A stretch of 57,733 nt of DNA from a virus, in IMG/VR virus record IMGVR_UViG_3300015202_000010, positions 1 to 57,733 of that record. One strand, 5' to 3'. Position 1 is the stretch's first letter. Each line of letters opens with the position of its first letter. This document shows, one piece after another, positions 17,262 through 19,585 of this stretch. The notes beneath the pieces are model-generated. The model worked only from the letters and a program-made list of their open reading frames with translations. It was not told where the DNA came from and made no database searches. Both the position numbers and the translations under genes were made by a program.

Positions 17262-17286
17262 GAAAAATTAGCCTTTAAAAAAGGCT
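17262..17286 (-). terminator. Intrinsic terminator of the modification operon
   Basis: On the minus strand AGCCTTT (17286-17280), three T, AAAGGCT (17276-17270), then AATTTTT. It overlaps the stop codon of the glycosyltransferase gene and separates the three-gene operon from the replication operon. Confidence 0.75.
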
Positions 17287-18058
17287 AAATCTCCGGCTCT
17301 GCCTCTTTTTCGGGCGATTTTGGCAGCAAAGCTTTCCAATTGAATCGAATCTCGTGTTGGCCGTGCTCTTCGACGAATTTAATTTTGCAAGCATCGGGGT
17401 AACGGTTCTTTACGCGCTCACAAGCCTCCATAACTCGCTCTCGAGCGGCGTAAACATGCTCGGCCCCACCGGACATCGACTTCATTTTGTGCTCGAAGGT
17501 GACGAGATTTGTGCGAACGACTTTGTAGCCGTTTTTGATGAGCCGCGCCGACATCTCCCAGTCTCCGAAAATCCATAACTCCTCATCGAAAAATCCGACG
17601 TCTCGAATAGCCTCCGCGTCCATTAAGTAGATACCCCAAGATCCGACCGGAGAGTCGTAAGCCTTTTTAGCGGCCCAAGAATTTGCGGCGAAACTTACGG
17701 TCCATTGCGCGGCTCCGGCGGCCTTCATCAGCTCGAGATTTTTATTCAAAACTTCCGTTACCTCTTCGAATTGAATTCTTTTGAATTTCTCATCTATGTT
17801 GTCTCTCGCTCGGAGACCGAGAACGTCATCGTCGGTGAAGCAGAAATATTTCTCGCCGTTTTCGAGGGTGTATTTTACGAGCTGATTCATCATCCCAGAG
17901 AAACCCATCCCGTTTTTTGGATGAACGACAAATTTCACGTGAGGGTGCAAGAATTTATAGTCCGCTATCTCTTTGGGCTCGACGAAAACGATAGGATCTG
18001 GAGCCCATTTCAAAAGAGGTAAAGACGTTCTAGAAAGACTCCCAGTCAAAAGTTTCAT
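17285..18058 (-). CDS. GT-A glycosyltransferase, TET-associated type
   Basis: 257 aa from ATG 18058, which has AAGGA upstream; the frame open to 18175 overlaps the previous gene and is not needed. FTDDDV (residues ~74-79) is the metal- and sugar-nucleotide-binding DxD of a GT-A fold, and WIFGDWEMSARLI (~162-174) is a likely acceptor/catalytic segment. Starts two bases after the stop of the TET/JBP-like gene, which suggests it glycosylates the hydroxymethyl base made by that enzyme, as in base J and TAGT systems. No membrane segment. The sugar donor cannot be told from the sequence. Confidence 0.75.
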   Translation of the reverse strand: MKLLTGSLSRTSLPLLKWAPDPIVFVEPKEIADYKFLHPHVKFVVHPKNGMGFSGMMNQLVKYTLENGEKYFCFTDDDVLGLRARDNIDEKFKRIQFEEVTEVLNKNLELMKAAGAAQWTVSFAANSWAAKKAYDSPVGSWGIYLMDAEAIRDVGFFDEELWIFGDWEMSARLIKNGYKVVRTNLVTFEHKMKSMSGGAEHVYAARERVMEACERVKNRYPDACKIKFVEEHGQHEIRFNWKALLPKSPEKEAEPEI

Positions 18059-18060
18059 TT

Positions 18061-18939
18061 TTATTCCTTGTCGTAAAGTGGTTCGCCAGGCTTTTTGTTT
18101 TTTGCGCGCATAAGTTCGGTATGAGGATCTTTGCAGAGTTGCAGTCTCTCTCTGAAATACAAAACCAAAGAACATCGAACCGATTTTGGACTCAATCTGA
18201 GAATCTGGGTATTGCCGTGAAACTCGTGGGCGTCGAACATCACAAAATCCAAACTATCGAGCTTCACCGCTATTCGCCAATCCGGCAGAACGAGATGACC
18301 TCCAACAGAAGCGCCTTCTTTGATGACGATCATGTTGCTGAAACCCTCTCGTAAATCACCCGCGTCTTTGTGTGCGGCCGTACGAAAGTTTTTGTTCACG
18401 GTGACGGTGGTGTAAACGGTTCCGGGTATGACCCAAGCTGGATCCGTTATTTTGCAAAAGTCTTGTTGGTTTTGAAATCTATCGGGAACGTATTTCTCAA
18501 AAAGTTTCGCCGTCCCTTGAAGCATCGGAATGATACGCTCAAATCTATCAGGATGTTTCGCATTCCAAGCGCAAGATCTCGCGTAAGGAAGTCTCGCCGA
18601 TCGGTCCATGTACCCGATCACGTCGCTTACAACCTGCCAATTTTTAGGAACGAGCATTTGACTCGATTTGGTGCCGTCCGCTTTTTGATAGGGAGAAGAT
18701 TCAATGCCGATCGCGGTCGAGCGGTTTTTGTTACCGCCGTTTATCGTCTTGATTTCTTTCCAAGCGTTCGCCGCAATTTGTGGCTCGATGGCTTTTTTCA
18801 ACAGGATGAGAAGCGGCTCTCCTCCAGGTTTATAGACGATCGTATCCTCATCTAATAGAAGATCGTAATTCGACTCGTCCATAAACTGCATCGACCAATC
18901 TTTATTTAGACTTGGGGACTCTAGCTTTATGCTCCGCAC
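18061..18939 (-). CDS. TET/JBP-type 2-oxoglutarate/Fe(II) dioxygenase
   Basis: 292 aa from GTG 18939 (GAGG upstream); ATG 18891 or 18882 would give a shorter start. Iron ligands appear as H190 and D192 in AAHKDAGD and H241 in HEFHGN; R255 in RCSLVLYFR is the expected 2-oxoglutarate anchor. The GGHLVLPDWRIAVKLDSLDF segment is the strand pair of the TET/JBP jelly roll. Phage members oxidise 5-methylcytosine or thymine in DNA to hydroxymethyl bases. No cytosine-5 methylase is visible in the window, so thymine oxidation is worth considering. Confidence 0.78.
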   Translation of the reverse strand: MRSIKLESPSLNKDWSMQFMDESNYDLLLDEDTIVYKPGGEPLLILLKKAIEPQIAANAWKEIKTINGGNKNRSTAIGIESSPYQKADGTKSSQMLVPKNWQVVSDVIGYMDRSARLPYARSCAWNAKHPDRFERIIPMLQGTAKLFEKYVPDRFQNQQDFCKITDPAWVIPGTVYTTVTVNKNFRTAAHKDAGDLREGFSNMIVIKEGASVGGHLVLPDWRIAVKLDSLDFVMFDAHEFHGNTQILRLSPKSVRCSLVLYFRERLQLCKDPHTELMRAKNKKPGEPLYDKE

Positions 18940-19585
18940 GCAATGCCTCGATTACTGTATCTGTTACGTTTTCAGTTTTGTAAATCTTAGCGAGATCGGT
19001 TGCCTTCACCATGAATTCAGCAAACGCCTCGGCTCCGAAATAAAGTTGAACCTGCTTCACGCCCTCGGAGCCGCTTTTCATTTGTCCGTTTGGACCGGCG
19101 GTTTCAGGAGACGGCAAAGCGTCGTGTTTGATTCCATCGAAAAGATTGCTGAGAGCGCCCATATCTAATTCTGGGAATTGAAAAGACGCCGAAAGCTCCT
19201 CGAGTGAAATCGAATTCTCTTTCATGAAATCGAAGAGTTTGTCTTTCTCGACTTTACCGTATTGAGACGCTCCGGCCAGAACTCGGAGTTTCGCTTCTTT
19301 AAAACTTTTCGCCTGAATGTAAACGACAGGGAGGGGAGGAATCTGAAACTTCTCGATTTTCTCCATCTGCGCGACTGTTCGGACACGCTGATGACCGTCG
19401 ATGATGTAAACTTTGTCTTTCTCTTTCCAGGCGTGAACGACAAAGCCAAAACCGTTGTCGATAATATTTTTTCGGAGTTTTTCATACTCGTCTTTGCCGA
19501 GACTTTTCATGTCGTTCTGAAAGGGCTCGAGCTTCGCGTGAGGAATATGATCTTTTGTATCGACTGTAATTCGGATGGATTTCAT
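18902..19585 (-). CDS. ParB/sulfiredoxin-fold protein
   Basis: 227 aa. VYIIDGHQRVRTVAQ (residues ~59-73) is the DGH(x)R signature of the ParB N-terminal fold; GASQYGKVEKDKL follows, then a C-terminal part of unknown type. ParB-fold proteins recur beside TET/JBP and glycosyltransferase genes in phage base-modification clusters and may be nucleotide-binding or ATP/CTP-dependent partners. First gene of the operon, AAAGGAG before ATG 19585, 38-base overlap with the dioxygenase gene. It is not accompanied by ParA, so plasmid-type partition is unlikely. Confidence 0.75.
   Translation of the reverse strand: MKSIRITVDTKDHIPHAKLEPFQNDMKSLGKDEYEKLRKNIIDNGFGFVVHAWKEKDKVYIIDGHQRVRTVAQMEKIEKFQIPPLPVVYIQAKSFKEAKLRVLAGASQYGKVEKDKLFDFMKENSISLEELSASFQFPELDMGALSNLFDGIKHDALPSPETAGPNGQMKSGSEGVKQVQLYFGAEAFAEFMVKATDLAKIYKTENVTDTVIEALRAEHKARVPKSK

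Follow-up and report, generated by a model that had tools for sequence, protein, structure and literature searches.

TET enzymes usually need methylated cytosine, and a three-gene cluster in an uncultivated phage raises the question of which base a TET/JBP dioxygenase would act on where no cytosine-C5 methylase accompanies it. The cluster lies on IMG/VR record IMGVR_UViG_3300015202_000010, a virus contig that is 57,733 bases long and has no associated host genome; it was analysed over its whole length and is called the window here. A Pfam scan showed the body of a tailed phage in the contig (Mu-type portal, large terminase and Mu F), and no tRNA genes were found in the window. A preliminary description, made from the letters alone, had read the cluster as a compact DNA-hypermodification operon and had left three options for its substrate: cytosine methylated by the host, cytosine methylated by an enzyme among the unknown genes, or thymine that is oxidized and then glycosylated, as in base J.

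The trio was found where that description had placed it, at 17285–19585, with all three frames on the minus strand and, from 5′ to 3′, in the order ParB-like protein, dioxygenase, glycosyltransferase. The ParB/Srx-superfamily protein (18902..19585, 227 aa) begins at an ATG preceded by AAAGGAG and has a DGHQR motif and a conserved C-terminal domain. The TET/JBP 2-oxoglutarate/Fe(II) dioxygenase (18061..18939, 292 aa) begins at a GTG, and the TAGT-like GT-A glycosyltransferase (17285..18058, 257 aa) at an ATG preceded by AAGGA; a plausible ribosome-binding site is present at each of the three starts. The genes are coupled as had been proposed: the ParB-like and dioxygenase frames overlap by 38 nt, the gap from the dioxygenase stop to the glycosyltransferase start at 18058 is 2 nt, and a hairpin resembling an intrinsic terminator (17268..17288, minus strand; a 9-bp stem, TTAGCCTTTTTTAAAGGCTAA, followed by TTTTTCTT), recognized by consensus match only, overlaps the glycosyltransferase stop codon and would close the operon. 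A longer, 296-aa glycosyltransferase frame starting at 18175 was rejected as an artefact of an upstream ATG, because it overlaps the TET gene and a ribosome-binding site precedes the start at 18058.

The HxD motif, distal histidine and arginine noted earlier in the dioxygenase correspond to H190-x-D192, H241 and R255, and these four residues are invariant across 88 aligned homologues. Pfam Tet_JBP (PF12851) matches the protein with E = 1.9e-21 (76.4 bits against a cut-off of 34.9) and is the sole domain that Pfam found in its 292 residues, with no J-binding domain of the JBP1 type. When a profile of 15 relatives was compared with the PDB, human TET2 was the first match (E = 0.0026), and in the profile alignment H190/D192, H241 and R255 fall on active-site motifs of TET2. 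A structural prediction without the double-stranded beta-helix iron site would have spoken against the original reading, and the prediction obtained is not of that kind: the AlphaFold2 model is confident (pLDDT 88.2, pTM 0.85), Foldseek returned NgTet1 (4lt5), TET2 (7ne3) and CcTet at the top, and the first 26 structural matches all belong to the TET family (NgTet1, TET2, CcTet and CMD1), ahead of FTO. Together, family and predicted fold identify the gene at 18061..18939, far above chance, as a TET/JBP dioxygenase, which would be expected to react on DNA. Two further positions were compared among TET groups. D195, three residues after the HxD aspartate, is also Asp in the 5mC-linked control group described below. 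R263, eight residues after the 2-oxoglutarate arginine, falls in the profile alignment on TET2 H1904, a position that we take to be a base-contact site; this column holds Arg in nearly all TETs of the window's group, Asp in most controls and, among the actinophages, Leu in most cases. In the TET tree a long branch leads to the window dioxygenase, and a scan of IMG/VR with this single protein found no relative.

The glycosyltransferase keeps the DDD motif reported before, at residues 76–78. Its match to Pfam TAGT (PF20691; E = 4.5e-6) reaches 27.2 bits, 0.3 bit short of the 27.5 cut-off, and we therefore label it TAGT-like rather than TAGT; the profile search that had been suggested for both families thus passed the cut-off for Tet_JBP and narrowly missed it for TAGT. 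PHROG 842 matches the protein with E = 6.4e-12, tblastn connects it to the TAGT of phage P12024L with E = 4e-6, and DDD and other invariant positions are common to it and the TAGTs of relatives, to which its overall identity is only 13–22%. The predicted model (pLDDT 86.4) finds GT-A nucleotide-sugar transferases as its structural matches, so that GT-A fold, DDD motif and linkage to TET are all present. As with the dioxygenase, a single-protein scan of IMG/VR found no relative. In one related locus (L009:941-2650), a single open reading frame matches both Tet_JBP (1.1e-23) and TAGT (6.5e-30), a natural fusion that strongly supports joint action of dioxygenase and glycosyltransferase.

The match of the first gene to PHROG 1033 (ParB-like) has an E-value of 3.8e-7, weak alone, and its product does not reach the Pfam cut-off for ParB_N, the best Pfam matches being GmrSD_N (E = 0.0078) and ParBc_2 (E = 0.14). 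An iterative HMM search joins it to gp17 of Pelagibacter phage HTVC112P, which passes Pfam ParB_N with 40.5 bits against 26.3. The assignment to the ParB family, weak by itself, is firm through this homology, and the protein is probably the targeting partner of the dioxygenase.

To place the cassette among its relatives, we turned to the best 80 loci of a larger set from an IMG/VR alignment search, which form 29 clusters at 80% identity, and to six named phages whose dioxygenases are related (HTVC112P, P12024L, Cr30, DLP6, C48C1 and S-CBWM1). Hosts in this group include Pelagibacter, Nonlabens, Caulobacter and Synechococcus. Among the best 80 loci, a ParB gene stands just upstream of TET in 70 of the 75 whose contigs are long enough on that side, and different genes follow TET: a TAGT-like glycosyltransferase in 32/80, an FkbM methyltransferase in 21/80, and elsewhere an ADDT/aGPT-Pplase, a P-loop kinase, a glutamine amidotransferase or a Dam-type gene. 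A sister TET group follows the same plan in 89 phage records, about 55 of them from mycobacteriophages, with several actinobacteria and Prochlorococcus as hosts. Its gene orders include ParB-TET-TAGT-PIG-L-kinase in Serendipitous, the same order in Acadian (where the kinase is the one protein that was scored), TET-TAGT-PIG-L in Altadena, ParB-TET-ADDT-kinase in Zemanar and, in Gordonia phage Wooper, ParB-TET-ADDT followed by a '5-hmU DNA kinase'. In the TET tree the control and sister groups each form one fully supported branch, and the window's group lies around both. The third gene of the cassette is interchangeable: a glycosyltransferase, an FkbM methyltransferase or an ADDT, the last a family tied to thymine hypermodification.

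Several neighbours and labels met in these loci are of interest in themselves. FkbM methyltransferases that replace or join the glycosyltransferase beside TET (L002:6854-7552, L177:3033-3734 and 21 IMG/VR loci) suggest that the hydroxymethyl base, or a sugar attached to it, is O-methylated; PIG-L (GlcNAc de-N-acetylase) genes after TAGT (L170:2504-3091, L178:5685-6278) suggest an amino-sugar on the base; and GATase_6 (glutamine amidotransferase) genes after TET (L036, L045, L050 and L027), together with an ADDT on the same contig in L036, L045 and L050, hint at an amide-bearing base. RefSeq labels the TET/JBP protein gp2 of mycobacteriophages 'queuine tRNA-ribosyltransferase' (L170:813-1730, L171:813-1691, L172:785-1759), as does PHROG 6059, and gp2 of Serendipitous (L170) is Tet_JBP by Pfam; the TETs of Cr30, DLP6, HTVC112P and S-CBWM1 are annotated 'SNF2 DNA repair protein'. 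Genes called 'terminase small subunit' in Serendipitous (L170:3088-3654, 1.7e-63) and Zemanar (NC_042035.1 2875-3465, 4e-74) match Pfam Ploopntkinase3 and are probably DNA-base kinases of the hypermodification operons.

The substrate question was approached by asking which phages bring a methylase. Cytosine-C5 methylase (PF00145) was absent from the window, including the 37 other window proteins scanned with Pfam, as the preliminary description had seen, and from all 87 records of the window's TET group (the window, the best 80 IMG/VR loci of a larger set and the six named phages); it was likewise found in 0/9 cultured phages of the sister group. By contrast, a control TET group related to phage Melnitz, drawn from a single query and thus not necessarily representative of all methylase-linked TETs, has PF00145 in 46/48 contigs, both misses having TET at the contig edge. 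Because such record counts are non-independent, we compared sequence clusters, and the difference persists there (0/45 against 12/12, p = 1.4e-12). Many contigs are fragments; complete genomes are available for HTVC112P, P12024L and the cultured actinophages. The ParB gene mirrors the methylase, with matches in 70/80 loci of the window's group (best 80 of a larger set) against one weak match in 72 control loci, and ADDT occurs in 13/50 records from the window's group and its neighbours against 0/48 controls.

Thymidylate-synthase-type hydroxymethylases (PF00303) were absent from the window and from every relative searched except Cr30, which leaves TET as the one apparent supplier of hydroxymethyl groups. 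Some relatives have a 5-hmU DNA kinase and ADDT/aGPT-PPlase, both absent from the window. P-loop kinases were considered as proof of a thymine substrate and dropped: weak matches to kinase family PF18751 also occur in 13 control records and in Melnitz, all with C5-methylases, and the family is not thymine-specific.

That the trio modifies the phage's own DNA is very probable, and family, fold and conserved gene neighbourhood all support the original reading as a DNA-hypermodification operon. It appears highly improbable that the cassette works on something else, such as host DNA, RNA or a glycan. FkbM enzymes and GT2-like transferases do also serve in glycan biosynthesis, and among the structural relatives are enzymes, FTO for one, with other methylated bases as substrates; against this, TET/JBP enzymes act on polynucleotides and the relatives' neighbours are a ParB-type protein and families that tailor DNA bases (TAGT, ADDT, 5-hmU DNA kinase). 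We regard it as very improbable, too, that the genes are decayed or inactive passengers, a view to which the long branch of the dioxygenase and the low identity of the glycosyltransferase might lend themselves, since the catalytic residues are all kept, the frames are intact, and ribosome-binding sites and coupling are present.

Among readings in which DNA is modified, the one that deserves most weight beside thymine is that a host C5-methylase marks the phage DNA, TET oxidizes the 5mC and the glycosyltransferase caps it, turning the host's own restriction mark to use. We judge this unlikely. 5mC oxidases are among the top characterized TET-family fold matches, six of ten GTDB genomes that hold a TET of the window's group have a C5-methylase, and in T6-like phages TAGT is believed to put a second glucose on glucosylated cytosine (PMC13390438). 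The remaining four GTDB genomes, which may be incomplete, have none, however, and across groups with very unlike hosts the phages never bring a methylase of their own (0/87, including the best 80 loci of a larger set, and 0/9), against 46/48 in the control. For M. smegmatis, host of about 55 of the phage records with a sister-group TET, recent work did not see cytosine methylation, while older reports found 5mC (PMC4938668). The option of host-methylated cytosine is thus weakened by the phage side of the comparison and kept alive by the C5-methylases in those six genomes. It is improbable that 5-methylated or 5-hydroxymethylated cytosine is made or obtained through an enzyme that PF00145 and PF00303 miss, with TET and glycosyltransferase acting on it, even if many left-arm genes lack a Pfam match and the virus record may be a fragment: the absence is uniform over 87 records (including the best 80 of a larger set) that comprise the complete HTVC112P and P12024L, the same HMM found the methylase in 46/48 control contigs, and few unassigned window proteins reach C5-methylase length. 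A methylase hidden among the window's unknown genes, the second of the original options, did not survive the search of the window and 86 related records, as far as Pfam tells.

Thymine oxidation, as in base J, is now the best supported of the three options, ahead of 5mC made by the host. Since thymine already has its methyl group when it is synthesized, an enzyme that oxidizes it can do without a methylase, which would explain the uniform lack of C5-methylases across phages of very different hosts; and because this phage and its relatives make no methylated cytosine, thymine is the likeliest target. Several points weigh on the other side. The closest characterized structures, 5mC oxidases among them, act on 5mC; the six methylase-bearing GTDB genomes and the older reports on M. 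smegmatis would fit cytosine; the window has neither ADDT nor kinase, and weak PF18751 matches accompany C5-methylases in the controls; D195 is shared with the 5mC-linked group; and the literature that we found gives no measured modified base for any of these phages. On balance we think it probable that the trio is a post-replicative base-hypermodification cassette that protects the phage DNA, with thymine as substrate and a glycosylated, base-J-like product.

In the mechanism that we propose, the ParB-like protein would bind DNA and direct or gate the dioxygenase, which, with Fe(II), O2 and 2-oxoglutarate, would add a hydroxyl to the 5-methyl group of a DNA pyrimidine. From the missing phage C5-methylase and the partner genes of relatives, the substrate would be thymine and the product 5-hydroxymethyluracil. 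The TAGT-like GT-A enzyme would then move a sugar from a host nucleotide-sugar onto the hydroxymethyl group, giving a base-J-like O-glycosyl-5-hydroxymethyluracil, of which acceptor, sugar and linkage are putative and the GT-A fold of the enzyme is well supported. In relatives an FkbM methyltransferase or an amino-acid/kinase route would take over this last step. Site selection would fall to ParB instead of the methylase, whose motif does that job in other clusters. For this fuller picture, a phage base-J-like pathway in which ParB targets TET/JBP to chosen thymines and a TAGT-like transferase glycosylates 5-hydroxymethyluracil, within a large modular, methylase-free ParB-TET-X family, we see an even balance of likelihood.

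Comparison with known systems helps to define what is particular to the window. Serendipitous gp1-gp2-gp3 have the same ParB-TET-TAGT order, closely spaced, in a genome without a C5-methylase or thymidylate-synthase-type enzyme; its TET is only about 20% identical and falls in a separate clade, and its operon continues with genes for a PIG-L deacetylase and a P-loop kinase, whereas the window has no kinase or ADDT. The nearest named TETs are those of HTVC112P (36–39% identity) and Nonlabens phage P12024L (33–35%), neither of which has a C5-methylase. HTVC112P gp17-gp19 share the ParB gene and end, unlike the window, in an FkbM methyltransferase; P12024L gp26-gp27 share the TAGT, a true TAGT in that phage, but lack ParB and come with a DPPY-type MTase. 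Clusters of the Melnitz type resemble the window in having a TET/JBP dioxygenase beside possible tailoring genes and differ from it in having a cytosine-C5 methylase and no ParB-like gene; a biochemical description of phage TET clusters with C5-methylase was reportedly given by Burke et al. 2021. For Tonitrus, thymidine hypermodification has already been proposed for a ParB-TET-aGPT-kinase operon (PMC11955845), and the trio itself is already present in cultured mycobacteriophages. The operons of Tonitrus and Wooper share ParB and a Tet-like protein with the window, Wooper also lacking a C5-methylase, and tailor with aGPT-Pplase2/ADDT and a 5-hmU DNA kinase in place of the glycosyltransferase. 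What the window holds is thus the methylase-free ParB-TET cassette in a form that ends in a glycosyltransferase, with chemistry predicted from its sequence. If thymine is the substrate, it resembles the base J pathway of trypanosomatids (JBP1/2 and JGT), in which TET/JBP hydroxylation is followed by glycosylation; it differs in lacking a J-binding domain and in having a GT-A TAGT-like transferase and a ParB-like partner. As of 2019 no phage had been reported to contain glucosylated 5hmdU (PMC6449724).

One TET group with a methylase and no ParB, set against two others with ParB and no methylase, makes base choice by TET/JBP enzymes directly testable, and new DNA oxidases and glycosyltransferases are of practical value for the sequencing and labelling of modified bases. 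Should thymine prove to be the substrate, tens of cultured mycobacteriophages are ready test material, and phages would provide a prokaryotic counterpart, perhaps the source, of the base J pathway.
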